Source: Streptomyces sp. DG2A-72 (GTDB lineage: Bacteria > Actinomycetota > Actinomycetes > Streptomycetales > Streptomycetaceae). Taken from it: a stretch of 64,000 bases of DNA. The stretch is from NCBI RefSeq assembly GCF_030499575.1, contig NZ_JASTLC010000001.1:7340001-7404000 (forward strand). The letters are read 5' to 3'. The notes below the pieces were generated by a model. It saw only the letters and a program-made list of their open reading frames with translations, was not told the origin of the DNA and ran no database searches. Numbering within the stretch: the first letter of the stretch is position 1; each line of letters begins with the position of its first letter. The position numbers and the translations under genes are program-made. This document shows positions 2,840-19,228 of the stretch, in pieces.

Positions 2840-2893
2840 GGACAGGGAACCATCAGGAGAACAACCGAGTCGCCATGGAGAGGTACAAAGCGC

Positions 2894-3397
2894 GTGGCTG
2901 CTGATCCCTCCCCGGACCTGGGCGAGGTGCTGCGGCAGCTCGCACAGGTCGTCGGGCAACGCGAAGCCGAATGCTCGTTCACCGACGGGCATGACCGCTG
3001 GTCCCTCTACCGTGCTGCCCTGGACACTCCGGCCGTGCTGCCGCTGCTGTTTGATGCGGTGTCGCTGGAGCCGGACGGGCCGCTGGCGTCCGGAGTCGTC
3101 GGCGACGTACTGGAACGGGTTCCCGAGGACGAGCGCGAGCAATGGGTGCAGATCCTCCCGCGGGGCGTGCGCGACTTCTCGGCACGCCGGGCACGGGAAC
3201 TCAGGGTCCTGGCCTCGCTGGAAGAGGGCGGCGTGCCGGCCGATGCAGCCGGAGAACTCATCGGCGGCTGGTCCGACTGGCTTCAGTTGAGAGCCGTCCG
3301 TGCGGCCTCCGACAAGGAGGTGCTGCACGTTGTCTCCCAGAAAGGCCGGACCAAGGCGATCAGGCGGGCCGCAACAGAGGCACTCCAGCGGCGGTAG
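2894..3397 (+). CDS. Conserved hypothetical protein, copy A
   Basis: A 167-aa soluble, acidic, helix-rich protein starting at GTG 2894 with GAGAGG 10 nt upstream. I recognise no catalytic motif. Regularly spaced Leu/Ala helices resemble small HEAT-like or adaptor proteins, but that is only an impression. It is about 91% identical to copy B at 17211-17714 on the other strand, and the similarity includes the GAGAGG ribosome-binding region. Differences cluster in the N-terminal 30 residues and around residues 90-103. Both copies adjoin pyk 3' sequence: here a 553-bp pyk fragment follows 11 bp after the stop. Function unknown. Confidence 0.75.
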   Translation: MAADPSPDLGEVLRQLAQVVGQREAECSFTDGHDRWSLYRAALDTPAVLPLLFDAVSLEPDGPLASGVVGDVLERVPEDEREQWVQILPRGVRDFSARRARELRVLASLEEGGVPADAAGELIGGWSDWLQLRAVRAASDKEVLHVVSQKGRTKAIRRAATEALQRR

Positions 3398-3408
3398 CCG
3401 TGACAGAG

Positions 3409-3895
3409 CGGCGCGTACCCGATCGAGACGGTCAAGACGATGTCGAAGATCGTCGTCGCGGCCGAGCAGGAGCTGATGTCGAAGGGCCTCCAGCCCCTGG
3501 TCCCCGGCAAGAAGCCGCGCACGCAGGGCGGTTCGGTCGCCCGCGCCGCCTGCGAGATCGCCGACTTCCTCGGCGGCAGGGGCCTGATCGCCTTCACCAA
3601 GTCCGGCGACACGGCCCGCCGCCTGTGCCGCTACCGGGCCTCCCAGCCGATCCTCGCCTTCACGACGGACGAGTCCACCCGCAACCAGCTCACCCTCAGC
3701 TGGGGCGTCGAGTCCCACGTCGTCCCCTTCGTCAACAGCACCGACGAGATGGTCGACCTGGTCGACGGCGAAGTCCTCAAACTCGGCCGCTTCAATGCCG
3801 GCGACACCCTCATCATCACGGCGGGGTCGCCTCCTGGGGTGCCGGGCACCACGAACATGGTGCGGGTGCACCACTTGGGCGGCGCGGCGAAGTAA
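3409..3895 (+). pseudogene. 3' fragment of pyruvate kinase (duplicate of pyk)
   Basis: This encodes only the C-terminal regulatory domain of pyruvate kinase, about 160 residues, with no catalytic barrel. It aligns without gaps to the 3' end of the complete pyk at 17801-19228 in inverted orientation (position p here pairs with 21696-p there). In the parts I compared the only mismatch is G3415 versus C. The copy continues past the stop through the terminator to 3961. An open frame from ATG 3440 would give a 151-aa peptide, but nothing suggests it is a functional gene. Near identity implies a recent duplication or ongoing gene conversion. Confidence 0.88.
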
Positions 3896-3927
3896 CGCAC
3901 GTGCCCGGCAAGGGGCTTGTACGGCGG

Positions 3928-3960
3928 TGAGGGCGCCTCCTTTGGCAGGGGGCGCCCTCA
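3928..3960 (+). terminator. Rho-independent-type hairpin (copied pyk terminator)
   Basis: A 10-bp perfect stem, TGAGGGCGCC (3928-3937) with GGCGCCCTCA (3951-3960), and a 13-nt loop. It is the duplicate of the terminator following the true pyk. Like many Streptomyces terminators it lacks a long U tract. Confidence 0.7.
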
Positions 3961-3980
3961 GTTCTTCTCACCGGGTGTTC

Positions 3981-4443
3981 TCACGCTGTCGGCGGTACTC
4001 CCACCGTCTCCCGCAGCCACGCGTTGCTGGCTCCGGATGGGTGGTAGTGATCAGGCGTACCGTCTCGGACTTGGCGTGAGGGGTCAGCTCACGCAGTTCG
4101 GACCAGTTCAGCTCCGCCTTGCCCGGCGGGTACTCCGTAGTGAGGGTGACGGAGTCACCGTCGCGGCTGAAGGCGTACACGTGCTGGGTCAGCTGGCCTC
4201 GGTCGCGACGTCGTTCTGGGTCTCCAGCGTCGTCGTGGCGTAGTGCAGCATCAGGGCGAAATCGACCACGGGCAGCCCCGGCAGACGCACGCTGAGGTCC
4301 ACACCGTGGATGACGAGCCGCACATTCGCCTGGAAGAGTTCCAGGCAGAAATCGGAGTTCGTCAGCTCCGGGTGCTCTGGCCGGTCAGGTTTCTCCGCCG
4401 GCCAGCCCGGATCCCAGGGGGGTGCCCCTATTGGTTTCGTCAA
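3981..4443 (-). pseudogene. Decayed hypothetical gene next to the IS110 element
   Basis: Three adjacent minus-strand frames read as one protein if two frameshifts are repaired. The N-terminal part (4443 to about 4189) contains PPWDPGWPAEKPDRPEHPEL and ends in a hydrophobic stretch ...VVDFALMLHYATTTL. The middle part (about 4200-4030) continues QHVYAFSRDGDSVTLTTEY. The last part ends NAWLRETVGVPPTA at 3981. The apparent shifts are near 4195 and 4030. The first codon, TTG 4443, overlaps the transposase stop, so the true N-terminus was probably lost to the insertion. It resembles small streptomycete proteins sometimes found with toxin loci, but I cannot assign a family. Confidence 0.55.
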
Positions 4444-5642
4444 CCCGTGGGGGCGGGTTGGGGTTCGTAGAAGGTGCCGTCGCGGAGCATCGCGAAGAGC
4501 ACGTTGGCTCGTCGTCTCGCGAGGCAGAGGAGGGCTTGGGTGTGGTGCTTTCCCTGAGCGATCTTCTTGTCGTAGTAGGTCCGCGAGACCGGGTCGGCCA
4601 GGGCCGCGAACGCGGACAGGAAGAAGGCCCGTTTGAGCTGTTTGTTTCCCCGGCGGGAGGGTTGTTCGCCGCGGATCGACGAGCCCGAGCTGCGGGTCGC
4701 GGGGGCGAGTCCGGCGTAAGCGGCGAGGTGGGCGGCGGACGGGAAGCTGCTGCCGTCGCCGACGTCGATGAGGATCCTGGCTCCGGTCCTGACGCCGATG
4801 CCGGGCATGGACGTCAGGACCTTGGAAAGAGGGTGGGCCTCCAGCAGTTCCTCGATTCTCGTGGCGAGGAGTTTGCGCTGGTCGAGGACGGCTTGGAGAG
4901 AGCTGGCGAGGCTGGGGACGATCAGGGCGGCGGCGTCCGTGCCGGGGACGACGACGGTCTGTTCGTCGAGCGCGGTGAAGATGTCCTCGACCAGCCGCTC
5001 GGCCATCCGCGGGGCCTTCGGGCGTATCAGGCTGATCAGCCGGCGCCGTCCGGCCTTGCGGATCAGGGCCGGCGAGCCGAACTGGTCCAGCAGTTGGAGC
5101 ACGGCCGGGTGCTGGATGCGCGGGCCCAGGACCCGTTCGAGGTGCGGGTGGATCTGGGTGAGCAGGCCGCGCAGCCGGTTGCTGATGCGGGTGGCTTCGC
5201 CGGCCAGGTCGTCGTCGAAGCCGAGGATCATTTCCAGCTCGGCGACGGTCTCGTCTTCCAGCTCGATGGAGCGGAGTGTGTGCGGCATCGACCGGGCGGC
5301 GTCGGCGATGACGAAGGCGTCACGGGCGTCGGTCTTGGCCTCGCCGGGATAGAGGTCGGCGATCCGCCGCATCGTGAGACCTGGCAGATAGGCAACCTGG
5401 CAGCCCATGTCGCGGGCCACTGCGATGGGCAGGGCGCCGATGGAGGCCGGCTGGTCGACGACCACGAGCACGGTGCCGTGCTTGGCCTGCAACTTCGCGA
5501 AGAGCTCGCGGAGTTTGGGCTCACTGTTGGGCAGCCGCTTGTCGAAGGCCTTCTTCCCGGTCGCGGTGACGGCGGTGGCGTGGTGTTCGCCCTTGCCGAC
5601 GTCCAGGCCGAGGAAGACGCCGATGTCGCTGGTGTCGATCAC
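4440..5642 (-). CDS. IS110-family transposase (DEDD recombinase)
   Basis: A 400-aa protein if started at GTG 5642 (VIDTSDIGVFLGLDVGKGEHH region); the open frame extends upstream without family support. The N-terminal RuvC-like DEDD domain is visible: D in FLGLDVGK (about residue 13), the VVVDQP strand (about 65), and KTDARDAFVIADAAR (about 108-122). The C-terminal Tnp2 domain contains SMPGIGVRTGARIL and the serine-bearing ATRSSGSSIRGEQPSRRGNK region (about 313-332). Known members of this family use a bridge RNA from the element's own non-coding end for target and donor choice. The reading frame is intact, so it may still be active. Confidence 0.9.
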   Translation of the reverse strand: MIDTSDIGVFLGLDVGKGEHHATAVTATGKKAFDKRLPNSEPKLRELFAKLQAKHGTVLVVVDQPASIGALPIAVARDMGCQVAYLPGLTMRRIADLYPGEAKTDARDAFVIADAARSMPHTLRSIELEDETVAELEMILGFDDDLAGEATRISNRLRGLLTQIHPHLERVLGPRIQHPAVLQLLDQFGSPALIRKAGRRRLISLIRPKAPRMAERLVEDIFTALDEQTVVVPGTDAAALIVPSLASSLQAVLDQRKLLATRIEELLEAHPLSKVLTSMPGIGVRTGARILIDVGDGSSFPSAAHLAAYAGLAPATRSSGSSIRGEQPSRRGNKQLKRAFFLSAFAALADPVSRTYYDKKIAQGKHHTQALLCLARRRANVLFAMLRDGTFYEPQPAPTG

Positions 5643-5890
5643 GTGCAGTCTCCGGTCGTACTCGCCCGGCCTTGGCGCGGCACCGATCGCCACATCCACA
5701 TTACGAAGAGCCTCCCTGCCTCCGGAGAAGCCGGTGGTCATGCCCCTAATCAGCGGTCTGTCGATGCCTCCGGAGCTGGTGACACCACCCCCCGGGCCAT
5801 GCGTTCGACAGGGGGGACCAGTCATGCCAGCTCCAGAGGCCGGGAGCCCCATTGCGGGGCCACGAAGAAGGTAATGGGGGGCCTCGGCGC
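5643..5890 (-). ncRNA. Candidate bridge RNA region of the IS110 element
   Basis: About 250 bp upstream of the transposase hold no convincing gene but several possible hairpins. One has a CCCCCC (about 5790) / GGGGGG (about 5812) stem. Another pairs GCCCC with GGGGC around 5852-5866. In the IS110 subgroup the non-coding region upstream of the transposase encodes the bridge RNA (established for IS621). Assignment here rests on position and fold potential only. Confidence 0.3.
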
Positions 5891-5964
5891 GAGGTTCGAA
5901 GGCAAAGCTGATCACCGCTGTCTCCTGTCGCCACCAGCTGTGCCCTCACACGTCTTCTCCAGAG

Positions 5965-5998
5965 GAAGGGCCCGGGGGCATGTGCCCCCGGGCCCTTC
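5965..5998 (-). terminator. Strong terminator of the toxin-immunity operon
   Basis: Perfect 16-bp stem, GAAGGGCCCGGGGGCA (5965-5980) with its complement (5983-5998), and a 2-nt centre. It lies 18 bp downstream of the last gene of the operon (stop at 6017) and would separate it from the IS110 element. Confidence 0.8.
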
Positions 5999-6016: not shown

Positions 6017-6403
6017 TTACGCCATGGCGGCTGCTTCGACGATTCCAAGTGCCAGGGCGTCGAAGTTCTCCCGGTAGAAGGTCAGCTCACGGTGGAAGTT
6101 CTCCTCCGAGAACATGCCGCGCTCCAGGAACATGACCGCCACGGCGGTCATTGCGCTGTGCAGGATGTGCAGTTCCTTGATGGTGAGCCGCAGCTCGAAT
6201 GACGTCTCGTGAGCGCCCTCGAAACGGTCGGCCAGGGTGTCGACTGCCTCTGGACCCGCGCCCAATTGCACGACCAGAGCCGTATTTCCGAGATTCCGGC
6301 CGCGTAGGAAAGCCAGAGCCTGGTGATAAGCCTCCGCCTGGGCCGGGGTGATCCGGGCGACGAACGCCTCACCGTCAGGGATGAGCTGGAGCCGGGACCT
6401 CAT
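6017..6403 (-). CDS. Candidate immunity protein 2 (paralogue of the gene upstream)
   Basis: A 128-aa protein from ATG 6403; the open frame runs further upstream but the paralogue alignment and the ATGA overlap (6400-6403) with the preceding gene fix the start. It is clearly homologous to the 130-aa product of 6400-6792: both have an N-terminal DGEAFVAR/DGEEFVAR motif, a helix with QAxAxHxALxFLR, then LVVQLGA/LALQLGA, LHILHSAMTAVAVMF/LHVVHSALTSVATMF, and a C-terminal FYRENFDALAL/FFRENLDALAL helix. It has no signal peptide, so it stays in the cytoplasm. Being the last gene of an operon headed by a probable polymorphic toxin suggests immunity; that is inference from context. Confidence 0.7.
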   Translation of the reverse strand: MRSRLQLIPDGEAFVARITPAQAEAYHQALAFLRGRNLGNTALVVQLGAGPEAVDTLADRFEGAHETSFELRLTIKELHILHSAMTAVAVMFLERGMFSEENFHRELTFYRENFDALALGIVEAAAMA

Positions 6404-6792
6404 GCCGTCACCTCGGAGGCCGCATTGACGAGGCTCAGTGCGAGGGCGTCGAGGTTCTCCCTGAAGAAGCCCAGCCGAATGTGGAAGGGCTCCTGCAAGA
6501 CCCTGCCGCGCGACATGAACATGGTCGCCACGGATGTCAGCGCACTGTGCACGACATGCAGTTCCCCCCACTGGAACCGCACCTCGACCGACTCCGCGTC
6601 ACCGACACGCAACCGCTCGACGATGCTGTCGACCGCCTTGGGGTCGGCACCGAGTTGCAGGGCCAGGATGTTGGCACTGATATCCCGGTGGCGCAGAAAG
6701 ATCAGCGCCTCGTGCATGGCAAGGGCCTGGCTTCGGGTGAGACGGGCGACGAACTCCTCACCGTCTTGGGTCAGTTCGAAATCTGTTTCCAT
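6400..6792 (-). CDS. Candidate immunity protein 1
   Basis: A 130-aa cytoplasmic protein from ATG 6792, with GAAGGGAGGA about 9 nt upstream. It begins 24 bp after the toxin stop and overlaps the next gene by 4 bp, so the three genes form a translationally linked operon. Predicted mixed alpha/beta fold with FELTQDGEEFVARLTRSQA at the N-terminus and two long helices, HVVHSALTSVATMFMSRGR (about residues 80-98) and FFRENLDALALSLVNAA (about 109-125). I know no named family with this pattern. Position directly after the toxin gene makes it the prime candidate for the cognate immunity protein. Confidence 0.7.
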   Translation of the reverse strand: METDFELTQDGEEFVARLTRSQALAMHEALIFLRHRDISANILALQLGADPKAVDSIVERLRVGDAESVEVRFQWGELHVVHSALTSVATMFMSRGRVLQEPFHIRLGFFRENLDALALSLVNAASEVTA

Positions 6793-6816
6793 GAATTGCG
6801 TCCTCCCTTCTCACTG

Positions 6817-9800
6817 CTAGGGCAGAGGCTCATAGCGACCGCCGGTGAAGAACTCGGCCTCGGTCTTCTTGTAGGCGTGGATGAACCGCTGCTTGATGAT
6901 GATGATCAAGCCTTTCGCCTTATCGTAGGCGACCGGCGTGCCCGTGCCCGCTTCCCGGTGCGTAGCAGCGCCACGGTACTTCTTGAAGTACTCGGCCATG
7001 GCCTTCAGGTCGCGGCCGATGCCGGGGAGGTTGTGGTCGTTGGCCGTTTTGAAGTTGGAGTCCGCCATGCGGTCCCACTGGTACTCGACGCCGTCCGCCA
7101 CGTCAGGGCCGTACTGCTTCTCGATCTTGATGAGGAGTTCGTTGGGCAGCGACTCCTTGGGATCGAGGTTGGCGCACATGTCCGCCCAGTCGTCGTTGTT
7201 CGACGACGCGGCCGCGGCCATGGTGGAGAAGGACGTCTGCGTCGCGGAGAAGGCCGCCGCCTGCGCGGGCTTCTTCTTGATCGGGCAGGACGGAAGCTCG
7301 GGCTCCTTCTTCGCCTTCTCGGCCAGCTTGCGCAGCTTGTCCAGCGTCCGCTTGGCCTGGGCCGACTTCTCGAAGAAACCGACGACTCCCGAGGCGATCC
7401 GGACGATCGCCTTGCTCACCCCGAGGATCTTGCTGGCCGGGACGGCCTTGACCAGCGTCCACAGGCAAGCCTCGACATCGCCCTTGGTCAGGCAGTTCTT
7501 GAGGTCGGTCCAGCCGATCTCGTCGAGGAGGATCTGCCCGCCGTTCTCCTTGACCCAGGTCAGCAGGTCCATGGAGGCGAGGGCCTGGGCAGCGCGGTAC
7601 TGGTCCACGCATTCCTGCCCGCAGGCGCGCAGCAGAGCCGCTTCCAGGTCGCTGCCCAAGTCGGGGGCGTCGTACGCCGTCTCGGCCCGCTCCTTGCGGA
7701 GGGCCTCTTGCTCCTCGCGCTGGGCCTTCTCCGCACGGTCGGCGGCGGCGTCGGCGTCCTTGGCTGCACCCTCGGCGTTGGAGGCGGCCTTCTCGGCCTT
7801 CACCGCGTCCGACTCCGCGTACGTGGCGGTCCGGTCCGCGGCGGCAGCGTCGGCCTCGGCGGAGGAGGCGGCGGAGCGGGCGCTCGTCGCATCCTTCTCG
7901 GCCTCCGTGGCGTCGCGGTCGGCCTGGGCGGCCGCCGACTCGGCCTCGTTGGCCGCGAAGTTGGCGTAGAAGGCGTCGGTGCCCGCCTGCTGGTCATACT
8001 TCTGGGCGTTCGCGTCTGCCTTCTTCGCGGCCGCTGCGTCGGTCGCCGCCGCAGCGGCAGAAGCGTTGGCCGCCGCGGCGGAGTTGACCGCTTGCACCGC
8101 GTAGTCCGCCGCGTCGGCCGCCGCCTGGAGGGCGATCTTCGCGTCGCCGGCCGCCCTGTCGGCAAGCGCCTTGGCCTGCGCCGCCGCCTTCTTCGCCTCG
8201 TCCGACTTGGCCTTGGCCGCGCTGGCCTGCTGTTCGGCGATCGTCTTGGAGGTCTGCCCGATCAGCACCGCGTACGCGGCCGAGGCGTCGGTCTCGATGT
8301 ACGGGGAGCCGATGCTGATCGCCTCGTTGGCCGCCTTGGTCACAGCGGTCGCTGCGTCCCGGGCGGCCTGCGCGTACTGGGCCGTGGCGAGCGCGTACCC
8401 GGCGGTCTTCGCCGCCCACGCGGCCGTCTTGGCAGCCTCGGCCACCGCCGCGGTTGCCTCCTTACGCGCGGTGATCGCGGCGGCCTGGGCCTTCTTGGCC
8501 TCGGCGTCCGCCTTCTTGGCCTTCTCCTTCGCCGACGCGGCCGCGTCGATCGCCTCGGCCGCCGCGGCGTGCGCGGTGGCAGCAGCCGCATGGGTCTTCG
8601 CGTACGCCGACTGGGCCGCGTCGGCGGCGGACCGGGAACGCTTGGCTGCACCTTCCGCACGGGTCGCCGCCGCTCGGGCGTTCACCGCCGCCGTGGTCGC
8701 TTCGTTCGCCGCCGTACGGGCCCGGGTCGCCGCACCCGCCGCGTCGTTGGCGGCGGCACGGGCCTCGGTGGCCGCCTGCCGGGTCTCGGCTGCGGCCGCA
8801 GTGCCCTCAGCGGCGGCTGCGGCGGACTCCAGGGCCGCCGCTCGGGAGGCGGTGGCGTTCTTCTCCTGCTCGGCCTTGACCGCCGCGTTGCGGGACTTGT
8901 AGGCGCGCTGTTCGGCGCTCAGCGCCGCCGCCAGCTTCGCCGTCGCGGTCGAGCCGGCCGTCTCCGCGTTCGTGCGGGCCTCGCTGGCCTTGTTCCGTTC
9001 GCCCTGCGCCCGCTTCTCGGCCGCGTCGGCCTTCGCGCGCTCGCTCGCCGCCAGGTCGCGCTCACGCTCGGCGGTGGCCTTCTCGGCCTCCGCGATACCG
9101 CGCTGCCGCTTCGCCTCCGCCGCCTGGTCCTTGGCAGTCTTCTCAGCCTTCTCGGCCGTCGCACGGGCCTTCTTCGCGGTGGTGGCGTTGGCCGCCGCCT
9201 CGGCGGCCAGCTTGGCCGCGGACTCGGCGGCCGCCTTGGCCTGCGCCTTCGCCTCCAGTGCCGCCGTCTTGCGGAACTCCGTGTTCAGCGCGTGCGTCTG
9301 GGTCTTCGCCAGCGCCAGGAGCGTCTGAGAGTCCGCCACCGTGGCCTTCGCCGCGTTCGACGCCGTCAGCGTCGCCTTCGCCGCCGCCTGGGCGGCCGCG
9401 GCCGATGCCTTGGCGACCTGCACGGACTGCTGCGCATAGAGCAGGCCCCGGCCGCGCGGCCACTTCGCGGCGTCGGCGATCGTCCACGCCTTCGTCTGCT
9501 CGGTGCCCGCGGTGTTCGCGGCTGTCTTGGCCCGGGCGGCCGCCGCGTCCGCCACGGCCACCTGGGCGGCAGCCTTGGTCTTGGCCGCGTTCAGGTCCTT
9601 CGCGGCCTTGGTGAACGCGGCCGTCGTCGGGTAGTCGAGCGAGTCCTTGTGCGCGGCCCAGTACTTCTGCCAGTACAGGATCTGGTCAGCCTGCCAGGCC
9701 TGCCGGACCGCCTCGATCATCGCGCCGGTGGCGGCCCGCGTCTCCTTAGCCGCGGCAGCCTCGGCGGTGACGATCGCCTTGCGCTGCCCGGCCTGGCCGG

Positions 9801-10692
9801 AGTACTCCGCCTCCCACTCCGAGTACGCCTGCACGACCGCCCCGGTGAGCACCCGGTAGTGGTCGATCGGGTTGGCGCTGTCACAGGCCGCCCAGGCCTG
9901 CTTCAGCGCTTCGACCTCGGTGCGGAACTCCAGCGAGTCCGGCTCGGGGGCCTTCGTCGGGAAGCCGCCGAACCGCAGGAAGGTGGCGACGTCGTTGGCC
10001 GAGGAGTAGCCCAGGTTGGTCGTGTCGAGCAGTTCCTTCCCGGCGACGTCCTTGTACGCGGCAGCCCACGTGTCGTCGCCGGTGTCGAAGGCGTCGAGCA
10101 CCTTCTTGGCTTGGTCCAGCGAGGCCTGGCCGGGCTTCGGTGTCGGGGACTCCCACGTCCTGTCGTACAGGTCCTGCTGGGTGCCGAGGGTGAAAGTGAT
10201 GATGTCCTTGCCGAAATCCGGTGCCCAGTAGTCCCGGCCGCCCTGCGAATTCACCGACGCGTAAGGCTTGTTGCTGGCGTTCAGCTTGTCCTGACGGTCT
10301 CGGTAGGCACGCAGGTCCGCCAGGCCCGTGTCCGAGTCCCGCCAGTGGGCCGCGCCCAGTTCACCGAAGGTCCAGTCCGCCACGACCGTGCGCAGTCCGG
10401 CGTCCGGGCCTGCGAGTTTGGTTGCCGCGTATGTCTTCATCTCTGGCCCGCCGAAGTGCACAGCCCGTGCCACCTGGCAGCGGTCTTTGCGGGCCTGCGC
10501 GCCGAGGCTGATGCGCAGGGTGCGTTCGTAGGGGTTGGCCGGGTTGTCTCCCGGTTCGTCAGCGGCTGCGGGGGCCGCGGAGACGAGTCCGCCGAGCACG
10601 GCTGCCGCGGTCGTGAGCGCGACGGCAGCGAACCCTCGCTGTGCGCGCCCTGCCCGGAATCGTCTCTGTAATCTTCTTCGTGTCGTTCGCAC
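6817..10692 (-). CDS. Secreted Ala-rich coiled-coil polymorphic toxin (predicted)
   Basis: A 1291-aa protein if started at GTG 10692, which has AGGTAGG 6 nt upstream; the open frame continues to 10860 but those 56 residues lack sense. Residues 1-45 form a signal peptide: many Arg, hydrophobic core VALTTAAAVLGGLVSA, then AAPAAADEP. Residues about 50-350 are a globular N-domain (ANPYERTLRISLGAQ, DYWAPDFGKDI, WAACDSANPIDHYRVLTG). About 350-1000 is an extremely Ala-rich helical stalk with Lys/Glu heptads. About 1005-1180 is a cysteine-containing pre-toxin region with a hydrophobic helix (ILGVSKAIVRIASGVVGFF). The last 110 residues look like a discrete effector domain ending KGLIIIIKQRFIHAYKKTEA..., perhaps a small nuclease; no catalytic residues can be assigned. 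Architecture plus two downstream paralogous small genes fit contact-dependent or secreted polymorphic toxins. Confidence 0.75.
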   Translation of the reverse strand: MRTTRRRLQRRFRAGRAQRGFAAVALTTAAAVLGGLVSAAPAAADEPGDNPANPYERTLRISLGAQARKDRCQVARAVHFGGPEMKTYAATKLAGPDAGLRTVVADWTFGELGAAHWRDSDTGLADLRAYRDRQDKLNASNKPYASVNSQGGRDYWAPDFGKDIITFTLGTQQDLYDRTWESPTPKPGQASLDQAKKVLDAFDTGDDTWAAAYKDVAGKELLDTTNLGYSSANDVATFLRFGGFPTKAPEPDSLEFRTEVEALKQAWAACDSANPIDHYRVLTGAVVQAYSEWEAEYSGQAGQRKAIVTAEAAAAKETRAATGAMIEAVRQAWQADQILYWQKYWAAHKDSLDYPTTAAFTKAAKDLNAAKTKAAAQVAVADAAAARAKTAANTAGTEQTKAWTIADAAKWPRGRGLLYAQQSVQVAKASAAAAQAAAKATLTASNAAKATVADSQTLLALAKTQTHALNTEFRKTAALEAKAQAKAAAESAAKLAAEAAANATTAKKARATAEKAEKTAKDQAAEAKRQRGIAEAEKATAERERDLAASERAKADAAEKRAQGERNKASEARTNAETAGSTATAKLAAALSAEQRAYKSRNAAVKAEQEKNATASRAAALESAAAAAEGTAAAAETRQAATEARAAANDAAGAATRARTAANEATTAAVNARAAATRAEGAAKRSRSAADAAQSAYAKTHAAAATAHAAAAEAIDAAASAKEKAKKADAEAKKAQAAAITARKEATAAVAEAAKTAAWAAKTAGYALATAQYAQAARDAATAVTKAANEAISIGSPYIETDASAAYAVLIGQTSKTIAEQQASAAKAKSDEAKKAAAQAKALADRAAGDAKIALQAAADAADYAVQAVNSAAAANASAAAAATDAAAAKKADANAQKYDQQAGTDAFYANFAANEAESAAAQADRDATEAEKDATSARSAASSAEADAAAADRTATYAESDAVKAEKAASNAEGAAKDADAAADRAEKAQREEQEALRKERAETAYDAPDLGSDLEAALLRACGQECVDQYRAAQALASMDLLTWVKENGGQILLDEIGWTDLKNCLTKGDVEACLWTLVKAVPASKILGVSKAIVRIASGVVGFFEKSAQAKRTLDKLRKLAEKAKKEPELPSCPIKKKPAQAAAFSATQTSFSTMAAAASSNNDDWADMCANLDPKESLPNELLIKIEKQYGPDVADGVEYQWDRMADSNFKTANDHNLPGIGRDLKAMAEYFKKYRGAATHREAGTGTPVAYDKAKGLIIIIKQRFIHAYKKTEAEFFTGGRYEPLP

Positions 10693-16302: not shown

Positions 16303-16471
16303 CCGGGATGACGCCACCTACACCTGGATGTTCGACCCGTCCGGCAGGAGTTTCGTGGTCTCCGGCGTCCCCTCCTGGCGGGAGGCGGCCCGCACGTTCG
16401 AGGACCCGTCCTTGTTCGAGGTCTCCCAGCCCTGGCCCTCCGACTTCGCTGCAGGGTCGCACCGTAGGTTG
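16303..16471 (+). pseudogene. C-terminal fragment of a paralogue of the next gene
   Basis: The frame reads DDATYTWMFDPSGRSFVVSG, then VPSWREAARTFEDPSLFEVS and QPWPSDFAAG before a stop. This parallels the C-terminal third of the gene at 16524-16943 (EDPEYTWMLEPDGDSFVVSG ... KPWPPDFPAESG). The first two thirds are missing. It shows that the neighbouring gene was once tandemly duplicated and one copy has decayed. Confidence 0.65.
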
Positions 16472-16523: not shown

Positions 16524-16943
16524 GTGGACATGCCAGATTTCATCCGCCCGGGCCGACTGTTCCGGGTCGTCGGCTTCAACCCCTCGCACCGGCAGCTCTA
16601 CCTTGCCAGCGAGGCGCTCGCCGTCGATGGGACCACGACACACGTCGAGGCTTACTTCGGTCACGTGGAGCTCATGCTGTTGCGGCCCTACTACCGGGAC
16701 GGCGTGCACATCCGCCGGGCCACCGCCGAGGAGTTCGCCGTCCTGCGGGAACGGCACCGGCTTGGGCCGGAGGACCCCGAGTACACCTGGATGCTGGAGC
16801 CGGACGGCGACAGCTTCGTCGTCAGTGGCAAGCCGAGCTGGCGGGAGGCCGAGTACGAGCTGATGGGCGACCGGGAAGCCCTGTACGACGCCTCCAAGCC
16901 CTGGCCGCCGGACTTCCCCGCGGAGTCGGGCACCGTCGGCTGA
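16524..16943 (+). CDS. Conserved hypothetical protein
   Basis: A 139-aa soluble protein. GTG 16524 follows GGGAGGGAGGA by 4-5 nt; ATG 16530 is nearly as likely. N-terminal part GRLFRVVGFNPSHRQLYLAS suggests a small beta-rich domain; the C-terminal part contains EYTWMLEPDGDSFVVSGKPS and ends in acidic/aromatic residues. No catalytic motif is evident and I do not recognise the family. A decayed second copy of its 3' end lies immediately upstream, and a bidirectional terminator follows. Confidence 0.6.
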   Translation: MDMPDFIRPGRLFRVVGFNPSHRQLYLASEALAVDGTTTHVEAYFGHVELMLLRPYYRDGVHIRRATAEEFAVLRERHRLGPEDPEYTWMLEPDGDSFVVSGKPSWREAEYELMGDREALYDASKPWPPDFPAESGTVG

Positions 16944-17117: not shown

Positions 17118-17210
17118 TGAGCGCCGCCCTGTCAGCCATCTCCGGAAGTTGCAGAGGACTGTGCCCCCGACCAGGTGTCGACCCGGCGAGCACAGCCGTG
17201 TCACGGGCGG

Positions 17211-17714
17211 CTACCGCCGCTGGAGCGCCTCCGTTGCGGCCCGCCTGATCGCCTTGGTCCTGCCCATCTGGGAGACGACGTGCAGCACCTCCTTGTCGGA
17301 GGTCGCACGGACGGCTCTCAACTGAAGCCAGTCGGACCAGCCGCCGATGAGTTCTCCGACGGCATCGGCCGGCACGCCGCCCTCTTCCAGCGAGGCCAGG
17401 ACCCCGAGTTCGCGTGCCCGGCGTGCCGAGAAGGCGCGCACGTTCGGCGGGAGGATCTGCACCCATTGCTCGCGCTCGTCCTCGGGAACCCGTTCCAGGA
17501 CGTTGCCGACGACCCCGGACGCCAGCGGCCCGTCCGGCTCCAGCGACACCGCATCAAACAGCAGCGGCAGCACGGCCGGAGTGTCCAGGGCAGCACGGTA
17601 GAGGGACCAGCGGTCATGCCCGTCGGTGAACGGGGCTTCGGCTTCGTACTGCCCGACAACCTCGGCGAGTTGCCGCAGCACCTCGCTCAGGGCCGGGGCG
17701 GGATCAGCAGCCAT
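17211..17714 (-). CDS. Conserved hypothetical protein, copy B
   Basis: A 167-aa soluble helical protein from ATG 17714, with GAGAGGA 7 nt upstream. It is about 91% identical to copy A (2894-3397). Notable differences are A/S and A/D near residues 6-8, Y for R at 23, AP for CS at 27-28 and PN for RG near 90. The conserved core includes FTDGHDRWSLYRAALDTPAV and LIGGWSDWLQLRAVRA. It follows pyk by 86 bp on the same strand, separated by the pyk terminator, and is followed by a pyk 3' remnant. No function is apparent; repeated association with pyk ends is the most informative fact. Confidence 0.75.
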   Translation of the reverse strand: MAADPAPALSEVLRQLAEVVGQYEAEAPFTDGHDRWSLYRAALDTPAVLPLLFDAVSLEPDGPLASGVVGNVLERVPEDEREQWVQILPPNVRAFSARRARELGVLASLEEGGVPADAVGELIGGWSDWLQLRAVRATSDKEVLHVVSQMGRTKAIRRAATEALQRR

Positions 17715-17734
17715 GCGTCGGTCCTCTCTACAAG

Positions 17735-18287
17735 CTGAGGGCGCCCCCTGCCAAAGGAGGCGCCCTCACCGCCGTACAAGCCCCTTGCCGGGCACGTGCG
17801 TTACTTCGCCGCGCCGCCCAAGTGGTGCACCCGCACCATGTTCGTGGTGCCCGGCACCCCAGGAGGCGACCCCGCCGTGATGATGAGGGTGTCGCCGGCA
17901 TTGAAGCGGCCGAGTTTGAGGACTTCGCCGTCGACCAGGTCGACCATCTCGTCGGTGCTGTTGACGAAGGGGACGACGTGGGACTCGACGCCCCAGCTGA
18001 GGGTGAGCTGGTTGCGGGTGGACTCGTCCGTCGTGAAGGCGAGGATCGGCTGGGAGGCCCGGTAGCGGCACAGGCGGCGGGCCGTGTCGCCGGACTTGGT
18101 GAAGGCGATCAGGCCCCTGCCGCCGAGGAAGTCGGCGATCTCGCAGGCGGCGCGGGCGACCGAACCGCCCTGCGTGCGCGGCTTCTTGCCGGGGACCAGG
18201 GGCTGGAGGCCCTTCGACATCAGCTCCTGCTCGGCCGCGACGACGATCTTCGACATCGTCTTGACCGTCTCGATCGGGTAGGCGCCG
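17735..18287 (-). repeat. Right copy of the 553-bp inverted repeat
   Basis: The 3' third of pyk plus its terminator, copied in inverted orientation at 3409-3961. Alignment is ungapped. One mismatch (C at 18281 versus the equivalent G3415) was noticed in the parts compared. Confidence 0.85.
17736..17768 (-). terminator. pyk terminator
   Basis: 10-bp perfect stem with a 13-nt loop, 33 bp after the pyk stop. Identical copy at 3928-3960; diverged copy at 16957-16995. Confidence 0.75.
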
Positions 18288-19228
18288 ACGGAAGACTCCG
18301 CCGACAGCATCACCGCGTCCGCGCCGTCCAGGATCGCGTTGGCCACGTCGGAGGCCTCTGCGCGGGTCGGGCGGGAGTTGGTGATCATCGACTCCATCAT
18401 CTGGGTCGCCACGATCACCGGCTTGGCGTTGCGCCGGCACAGCTCGATCAGGCGCTTCTGCACCATCGGGACCTTCTCGAGCGGGTACTCGACGGCCAGG
18501 TCACCGCGGGCCACCATGACGGCGTCGAACGCCATCACGACGCCCTCCATGTTCTCCACCGCCTGGGGCTTCTCCACCTTGGCGATGACGGGGACGCGGC
18601 GGCCCTCCTCGTCCATCACCTTGTGGACGTCCTCGACGTCCTTGGCGTCCCGCACGAAGGACAGGGCGACCATGTCGCAGCCCATGCGGAGGGCGAAGCG
18701 GAGGTCCTCGACGTCCTTGTCGGACAGCGCCGGGACGTTGACGGCCGCACCGGGCAGGTTGATGCCCTTGTGGTCGGAGACGACACCGCCCTCGATGACG
18801 ATCGACTTGACCCGCTGGCCCTCGACGTCCAGCACCTTCAGCTCGACGTTGCCGTCGTTGATCAGGATCTGGTCGCCGCGGGAGACGTCACCGGGCAGGC
18901 CCTTGTAGGTCGTCCCGCAGATCTGCTTGTCGCCCGGGACGTCCTCGGTGGTGATGACGAACTCGTCACCGCGCTCCAACTCCACCGGGCCCTCGGTGAA
19001 GGTCTCCAGCCGGATCTTGGGGCCCTGCAGGTCGGCGAGGACGCCGATCGCGCGGCCGGTCTCCTTGGAGGCGGCGCGGACACGGTCGTACCGTCCCTGG
19101 TGCTCGGCGTGGGTGCCGTGGCTGAAGTTGAAGCGGGCCACGTTCATGCCGGCCTCGATCAGCGCGACGAGTTGCTCGTGGGAGTCGACCGCGGGGCCGA
19201 GAGTACAGACGATTTTCGAACGGCGCAT
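17801..19228 (-). CDS. pyk: Pyruvate kinase
   Basis: A 475-aa cytoplasmic enzyme that transfers phosphate from phosphoenolpyruvate to ADP, the last step of glycolysis. N-terminal barrel MRRSKIVCTLGPAVDS with NFSHGTHAEH; catalytic Lys region VIAKVEKPQAVENMEG (about 215); metal-binding MVARGDLAVEYP; and the signature VATQMMESMITNSRPTRAE. The C-terminal allosteric domain covers about residues 325-475. Full family length, ATG start. It is transcribed in the same direction as ackA-pta, which lie upstream (74-bp gap). Its 3' third is duplicated at 3409-3961 and more distantly at 17043-17117. Confidence 0.96.
   Translation of the reverse strand: MRRSKIVCTLGPAVDSHEQLVALIEAGMNVARFNFSHGTHAEHQGRYDRVRAASKETGRAIGVLADLQGPKIRLETFTEGPVELERGDEFVITTEDVPGDKQICGTTYKGLPGDVSRGDQILINDGNVELKVLDVEGQRVKSIVIEGGVVSDHKGINLPGAAVNVPALSDKDVEDLRFALRMGCDMVALSFVRDAKDVEDVHKVMDEEGRRVPVIAKVEKPQAVENMEGVVMAFDAVMVARGDLAVEYPLEKVPMVQKRLIELCRRNAKPVIVATQMMESMITNSRPTRAEASDVANAILDGADAVMLSAESSVGAYPIETVKTMSKIVVAAEQELMSKGLQPLVPGKKPRTQGGSVARAACEIADFLGGRGLIAFTKSGDTARRLCRYRASQPILAFTTDESTRNQLTLSWGVESHVVPFVNSTDEMVDLVDGEVLKLGRFNAGDTLIITAGSPPGVPGTTNMVRVHHLGGAAK

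Follow-up and report, generated by a model that had tools for sequence, protein, structure and literature searches.

A probable polymorphic toxin with paralogous immunity genes and its exchange hot spot in Streptomyces

What does a large alanine-rich protein do whose gene is followed directly by two small genes that resemble each other? The question is raised by positions 6017 to 10692 of a 64-kilobase window (the whole stretch of DNA analyzed here, contig positions 7340001–7404000) from the 10.58-Mb genome of Streptomyces sp. DG2A-72. We refer to the large protein as P0001 and to the products of the first and second small genes as P0002 and P0003; G and L numbers denote genomes and fetched loci, and the genes of relatives were called with a base-composition script, so that their start positions are approximate. 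Our data make it likely that the locus encodes a polymorphic toxin directed at other actinobacteria, along with the cognate immunity genes, with an RNA-cutting tail, paralogous antidotes, and exchange at a chromosomal hot spot.

The toxin gene (6817..10692, minus strand) runs from a GTG at 10692, preceded by an AGG..AGG stretch, to a stop at 6817 and encodes 1291 amino acids. Its product begins with a signal-like N-terminus that, read by eye from the sequence, is Arg-rich, then hydrophobic, and then continues as ..APAAADE. A head domain follows and leads into an Ala-rich stalk (about residues 301–1010; 7663..9792, minus strand), which is characterized by its composition, its identity to relatives, and its homology to the ALF stalk toxins described below; Ala makes up 37.9% of residues 301–1060. 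The pre-toxin module (residues 1018–1142; 7267..7641, minus strand), common to ALF-repeat stalk toxins, precedes the C-terminal toxin domain (residues 1175–1291; 6820..7170, minus strand), and the pre-toxin part carries Cys residues at positions 1024, 1028, 1067, 1076, 1136, and 1173. The gene for P0002 (130 residues; 6400..6792, minus strand) lies 24 nucleotides past the toxin gene and overlaps by 4 nucleotides the gene for P0003 (128 residues; 6017..6403, minus strand). The open frame, the Ala-rich stalk, the Cys-bearing segment, and the two closely spaced, overlapping small genes had all been described in an earlier sequence-only reading of this DNA, and each was borne out. Absent from that reading are the paralogy of the small genes, the antidotes of other toxins near them, the hot spot, and the relationship to ALF-repeat stalk toxins. 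That reading had also placed a strong terminator behind the small genes; a perfect 15-base pair hairpin is indeed revealed there by folding of the sequence (5965..5998, minus strand; the surrounding 81 nucleotides give −49.6 kcal/mol, z score −6.3), but it lacks a T-run and was not among the terminators listed in a scan of the window.

The GC content is 72.7% over the codons for residues 1–1000 of P0001, as opposed to 61.5% in the toxin domain and 63.1 and 63.5% in the small genes, a contrast that fits a mosaic origin. The arrangement of toxin and small genes recurs in relatives and is therefore not a chance reading frame. Scans of the three proteins with Pfam, NCBIfam, and PADLOC returned nothing useful, Pfam found no HINT match in P0001, and a sequence search of the PDB with the entire P0001 returned designed coiled coils only. 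A JetB match of P0002 in PADLOC (E 0.0048) was taken as chance.

Comparison with relatives indicates that the carrier part of P0001 is constant and its end exchangeable. The head and first part of the stalk (residues 46–417) gave matches in 54 of 199 genus genomes, and 40 carrier stretches were fetched from the ranked match list rather than at random. One of them, L041 (G077), was not recovered by the gene caller and was left out of the carrier gene calls and of the 39 stretches tested for neighboring markers; L058 and L059 overlap, so that one protein is counted twice among the 40 carrier gene calls. Over stalk residues 601–1000, six relatives (L033–L038) are 81–94% identical. L033 and L034 share 85–90% identity with P0001 across residues 46–1000 but only 7% and 15% over residues 1175–1291, and L037 is 67–94% identical until the C-terminal domain, where identity drops to 5%. 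The remaining three (L035, L036, and L038) are 57–61% identical to P0001 over the last 117 residues. When the C-terminal parts of 20 relatives were scanned with Pfam, some proved to be Ntox27, RNAse_A_bac, XOO_2897-deam, Tox-REase-5, or DUF4160; several of these named tails are preceded by PT-HINT, and other tails among the 20 had no Pfam match. Pfam supported neither EndoU as the tail of L034 nor an RNase tail on the toxin of L148. The immunity genes differ by tail, with the DUF4160 type in L033, L037, and L040 and the Ntox27 type in L051, L052, L055, L057, and L059.

Conservation of the carrier together with joint variation of tail and downstream genes had been set in advance as the test of the polymorphic toxin locus proposed by the sequence-only reading, and the outcome was positive. 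On these sequence comparisons P0001 is a chimeric polymorphic toxin, with a conserved carrier and an abruptly variable toxin end. A long Ala-rich region and a secretion-like N-terminus would also suit a structural surface protein whose small neighbors are unrelated housekeeping or chaperone genes. Such a protein would hardly bear interchangeable tails, named toxin families among them, on the same stalk, or be accompanied by a small-gene family that is constantly paired with this tail across carriers, and we consider this explanation extremely improbable.

Two elaborations of the carrier were noticed. A ricin-type lectin is inserted between head and stalk in 11 of 41 carrier rows (L062–L072; identified by Pfam in L062 and L148 and by phmmer in the rest), and this β-trefoil domain is possibly a built-in receptor-binding arm. 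Five genomes have the head–stalk unit doubled within a single frame of 2453–2548 residues. These doubled carriers (L055, L056, L057, L059, and L060; gene calls of 2407–2461 residues) recall the doubled ring-stalk plan of UmbC. A search of plasmids located the carrier head on four Streptomyces plasmids and a P0003 relative on one; the toxin domain was not found in that search.

How widely is the toxin domain itself distributed, and on what proteins? The last 117 residues of P0001 gave matches in 12 of 295 genus genomes, the window's own included, or 11 after removal of G070 (L117), whose match, 23 residues inside other genes, enters none of the counts. The domain is found on the same stalk (L035, L036, and L038), on a longer stalk protein that is cut at a contig end (L112), on an Rhs protein (L111; RHS_repeat was named by Pfam in the same gene as L168), and on proteins that by eye have a pilin-like leader (L115 and L116). 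A scan of named genomes yielded 17 loci with the domain, including Agromyces, Actinomadura, and Kibdelosporangium, and one carrier with ALF repeats (L164, Streptomyces sp. I6; ALF E 1.2e-53, Pfam). By sequence homology, one toxin domain is thus shared between several kinds of carrier.

The pilin-leader proteins appear to be a further carrier type: the N-termini of L115, L116, L170, L171, and L172 look, on inspection by eye, like Flp/TadE-type pilin leaders (..GQGALEYVGLIV..), and their tails are exchangeable. Pfam names only HINT in L170, and the L116 stretch holds three genes of this type.

The small genes follow the toxin domain from carrier to carrier. P0002 and P0003 are paralogous, with 49% identity over 126 residues (50% in another comparison), and a gene of their family lies directly 3′ of the toxin domain in 10 of 10 genus loci and 17 of 17 named loci; because six loci are common to both sets, the total outside the window is 21 distinct loci, all of them with such a gene. 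For L115 and L170–L172 the link is transitive, as their genes match the L116 genes, and these in turn match P0002 (E 5e-5) and the L112 gene (E 2e-8) weakly. Eight loci have two tandem copies (L036, L038, L115, L116, L160, and L170–L172), and single immunity genes occur at others (L035 and L110–L114). A tree built from 33 immunity sequences for the most part sets the first genes of the stalk loci apart from the second ones, and it places the genes of the pilin-leader loci in two further groups; the two stalk-side groups are without starred support, and both L036 genes lie in the second-gene group. These four groups suggest that tandem duplication took place at least twice.

The tree bears on whether both small genes act on the P0001 toxin. 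One of them alone may neutralize it, the other being a stored antidote to a toxin variant; the largely separate groups of first and second genes, each with toxin-free members, and the existence of one-gene loci would agree with this. Two copies recur, however, on a different carrier through an apparently separate duplication (L115, L116, L170, and L172), which suggests a use for both, and at L036 both copies belong to one tree group. We take the single-antidote explanation as a serious possibility, although not the favored one, and retain the reading in which both proteins protect the producer.

The immunity family is new. The P0002 model, built from 23 sequences, has a mean predicted local distance difference test score (pLDDT) of 94.2, and no solved structure stands out in comparison with it. 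Pfam gave single matches only, at E 0.03 or worse, among the 23 family members, and a profile search of the PDB with the family gave matches at E 1 or worse only. At L148 (6366–7671), three tandem genes of the P0002/P0003 type stand without their own toxin, one from each of three tree groups, and the toxin of that locus, encoded upstream of them, belongs to the same carrier family but has a lectin, HINT, and a different, unnamed tail.

What might the toxin domain do? It has no Pfam or NCBIfam name, and a profile search of the PDB retrieved nothing. It lacks a Pfam match to Ntox19 or Ntox50 and is set apart from both by that alone; the toxin clade is new. The order of elements in an AlphaFold2 model (pLDDT 89.8) fits the definition of the BECR fold, in which helices at the N-terminus lead into a meander of four strands, often with a short fifth one (PMC3482391). 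In this fold, a Ser/Thr, or in some clades a His, in strand 4 is accompanied by an N-terminal catalytic residue (PMC3482391). Two His residues, His54 and His106 (A2 numbering), are invariant in 15 of 15 aligned rows, and His106 lies in strand 4 of the model; L174 (in-frame stop in the toxin domain), L165 (a near-copy of L163), and L173 (partial match) were left out of this alignment. Structural matches were weak, with none at E ≤ 0.001 in Foldseek. Eleven entries were listed after alignment: the first five comprise four colicin D structures and a contact-dependent inhibition (CDI) toxin, and a sequence-specific ribonuclease and a ParDE chain come next. Two of the four, 1tfo and 1tfk, were assigned to colicin D from their residue numbering.

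The model therefore points, weakly, to the layout of a BECR RNase, in the same direction as the nuclease that the sequence-only reading had thought possible, and the domain is probably an RNA-cutting toxin. A polymorphic toxin whose end domain acts instead on DNA, on a nucleotide cofactor, or on some other target, with a different role for its conserved His, Asp, and Tyr, would be compatible with a domain that has no sequence relative of known function and with such weak structural matches. BECR-class proteins with other targets do exist, for example ParE on gyrase (PMC9086364). Against such a target stand the head of the structural list, occupied by colicin D and the CDI toxin, and the agreement of both element order and invariant His residues with BECR clades; we judge it unlikely and favor RNA as the substrate.

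To what family does the carrier belong? The Pfam ALF model had no match in P0001 at E ≤ 1. A custom profile made from 43 ALF repeats of Umb-like loci, in contrast, recognized one repeat in the P0001 head (residues 71–102; 10387..10482, minus strand) at E 4.5e-5 in a set of 41. The same profile matched 12 of the 41 carrier rows at E ≤ 1e-3 and not the others, and the best reversed-sequence control reached E 0.3. With hhalign, the head scored a probability of 95.8 against ALF repeats and 64.8 against an alignment of entire UmbC-like proteins. The repeat is thus ALF-like and degenerate. The stalk was compared with two groups of proteins. Against nine UmbC-like gene calls it scored 186–187 bits without composition correction, and the reversed or shuffled stalk scored 172–180; with correction there were no matches. 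Against six ALF-bearing stalk toxins (L177–L181), P0001 reached up to 442 bits over residues 23–1168 without correction, compared with at most 209 for the controls. With correction, one of the six matched (115 bits, residues 594–1160) and none of the controls did. These scores above the controls place the window protein with the ALF stalk toxins. UmbC as an identity for P0001 was ruled out by the repeat count, one degenerate repeat as opposed to eight, and by stalk scores at control level.

The pre-toxin segment is consistent with this kinship. Residues 1020–1144 gave matches in 43 of 150 genus genomes; of the 28 places at E ≤ 1e-14, those inspected were like carriers or ALF stalk toxins, and matches in longer Rhs-size frames and in pilin-leader frames were weak and partial. 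The segment may be an entry or mounting module. Judged from these alignments, the carrier is a branch akin to the ALF stalk toxins with a reduced head.

Could P0001 nevertheless be part of an umbrella-like particle, its ALF-like repeat recruiting adaptor and lectin proteins encoded elsewhere that confer target specificity? Several observations would suit such a role besides the repeat itself. The stalk is homologous to that of ALF stalk toxins, and those toxins adjoin partner genes for ALF-bearing proteins of about 355 and 500 residues. Elsewhere in this genome lies an Umb-like locus, L085 (G000:C1:6326000–6340000), with an ALF-repeat UmbC-like gene, an UmbA-like protein matching trypsin, B_lectin, and FG-GAP, and, by eye, a small secreted UmbB-like gene. 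Lectin targeting also fits the family, given the built-in lectins described above, and umbA genes can be unlinked (PMC11062931). The repeat is, however, single and degenerate, and the resemblance of the stalk to UmbC-like proteins is no better than that of its reversed or shuffled form. No ALF gene was found among the 48 gene calls of the window, where the called P0001 start falls past the ALF-like repeat, or beside the carriers of L033–L038, and inspection of the window gene list recognized no UmbA or UmbB gene. We regard recruitment into such a particle as quite improbable. Near L177, small ricin-like proteins were seen by eye, and the layout of L177–L181 is unlike umbA–umbB–umbC.

A broader proposal, which we put forward as speculation with little chance of being right in full, is that the stalk toxins of Streptomyces make up a single superfamily whose heads derive from ALF repeats and whose members have in common a module for mounting the tail or for entry, umbrella particles being only one of the branches. 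In the branch of P0001, receptors would be bound either by an in-chain lectin or by a part that the single ALF-like repeat recruits in trans from the strain's ALF/umbrella set, and this branch would be swapped at a fixed hot spot that doubles as the antidote archive of the genus. If so, the same arms could serve to aim toxins of several kinds.

The cassette also has a preferred chromosomal place. Markers from the window's set of icmA, ybbN, DUF6230, DUF6114, and pyk are present in 27 of the 39 tested carrier stretches, not counting L050 with its isolated 48% DUF6230 match. Labels of neighbors such as icmA, pta, ackA, and TetR were given by eye and are putative. Two insertion slots are used, one between icmA and ybbN (L046, L047, L059, L060, L062, and L063) and the other between DUF6114 and pyk. 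The sequence-only reading had seen an island next to an insertion sequence (IS) element; an IS110-type transposase is indeed a neighbor, but the island is better described as a conserved exchange hot spot for toxins, icmA–ybbN–DUF6230/6114–pyk, as gene order and sequence matches indicate. We consider this hot spot new.

That reading had also named, as evidence against itself, small genes that occur widely without the large one. Taken literally, they do: P0003 matches are present in 25 of 295 genomes, nine with the toxin domain and 16 without it, although five of the latter are weak or fragmentary (G016, G020, G103, G111, and G187). The surroundings were read in 12 of the 16. In eight of these (L065, L148, L149, L150, L151, L156, L157, and L159) the toxin-free copies sit at the pyk spot, beside other toxins or alone, and in four (L152, L154, L155, and L158) they lie elsewhere. 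A genome that also has the toxin carries an extra copy away from the pyk spot (L153). Toxin-free copies at the same spot fit orphan immunity genes, a known feature of polymorphic toxin systems.

The window itself contains four to five apparent antidotes to other toxins, besides the P0001 pair. Two toxin-free genes of the DUF4160-toxin immunity type are present, one at 2927..3397 (plus strand; 70% to the gene that follows the toxin of L037) and the other at 17211..17681 (minus strand; 71%), adjoining pyk. A gene of the Ntox27-toxin immunity type, also without a toxin, lies at 16524..16943 (plus strand; 71%), with a partial second match at 16310–16459. A broken immunity gene of the L034 type (3984..5915, minus strand) is represented by pieces at 4416–3984, found by tblastn, and by a start-like piece near 5915–5886, seen by eye. 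Between the pieces lies an IS110-family transposase gene (4440..5699, minus strand; PF01548, E 2e-51), so that the immunity gene has apparently been interrupted by the IS110 element. Matching toxins of the DUF4160, Ntox27 (PF15531), and L034 types were not found in this genome; as positive controls, the same queries detected the DUF4160 type in three of three genomes (one being the query source), Ntox27 in three of three, and the L034 type in its source genome only.

The block also bears signs of rearrangement. A copy of the 3′ third of pyk (3409..3961, plus strand) forms an inverted repeat of 553 nucleotides and 100% identity with 17735..18287 (minus strand), the 3′ part of the intact pyk (17801–19228). 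A second inverted pair, 2891–3400 and 17208–17717 (510 nucleotides, 94%), contains the DUF4160-type immunity gene, and both pairs flank the block. The gene order in L151 is icmA(+), TetR(−), ybbN(+), DUF6230(+), DUF6114(+), .., pyk(−), and relative to L149–L151 the window segment from toxin to TetR is inverted. Together with the flanking repeats, this inversion suggests that recombination between such repeats probably turned the segment, and the toxin block is perhaps invertible.

We propose the following model. The large protein would be secreted, with its head, which bears one degenerate ALF repeat, and long Ala-rich stalk carrying the pre-toxin module and an interchangeable end domain of ~115 residues. 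Once in the target cell, the end domain would most likely cut RNA, probably transfer RNA, by a metal-independent two-histidine BECR mechanism, and in the producer both paralogous downstream proteins would bind and block it. The cassette, or the tail and immunity gene alone, would be exchanged by recombination at icmA–ybbN–DUF6230/6114–pyk, and antidotes to displaced toxins would be retained there.

At the fixed icmA–ybbN–pyk locus, much of a Streptomyces genome's toxin and antidote repertoire is readable, which would make toxin turnover and the storage of immunity among soil bacteria accessible to counting. The unnamed toxin–immunity pair is quickly testable in laboratory strains. Our results also indicate that the range of Streptomyces stalk toxins is wider than umbrella particles and comprises plain, lectin-bearing, and doubled versions akin to partnered ALF-repeat toxins. 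The openly accessible literature, in the portions available and with subscription papers and preprints outside its scope, yielded no description of this carrier branch, of ALF stalk toxins like L177–L181, or of the hot spot. Besides the toxin clade, immunity family, and hot spot, the lectin-bearing and doubled carriers and the reduced-head carrier branch are new here.

The closest known relatives are the ALF stalk toxins of L177–L181, which share the length class (gene calls of 1263–1431 residues), a collinear homologous stalk and pre-toxin module, and variable ends. They differ in having two or three ALF matches in the head and adjoining ALF partner genes, whereas P0001 has a single degenerate repeat and lacks neighbors of this kind. 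The umbrella toxins (UmbC; PMC11062931 and PMC13274773) are likewise secreted Streptomyces proteins whose stalk ends in a polymorphic toxin and whose head bears repeats of the ALF type; P0001 would be exported, judged by eye from its N-terminus. An ALF carrier, L164, has the toxin domain of P0001. UmbC has two sets of four ALF repeats, eight in all, unlike P0001, whose stalk resembles that of UmbC only at control level and whose locus has no recognized UmbB or UmbA gene. Polymorphic toxin systems such as CDI, Rhs, and MafB (PMC3482391) have the same constant carrier, variable toxin end, linked immunity gene, tail exchange, and toxin-free immunity genes, but the carrier and toxin–immunity pair of the window match no Pfam or NCBIfam family. 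The toxin domain agrees in predicted fold order and size with colicin D and other BECR RNase toxins, and with Ntox19 and Ntox50 (PMC3482391) it shares an N-terminal His and a second His in strand 4. Finally, the esaG strings (PMC9484751) are also non-identical immunity genes standing beside a polymorphic nuclease toxin; they belong to other bacteria and another secretion system, whereas the strings described here are gathered at one hot spot among housekeeping genes.

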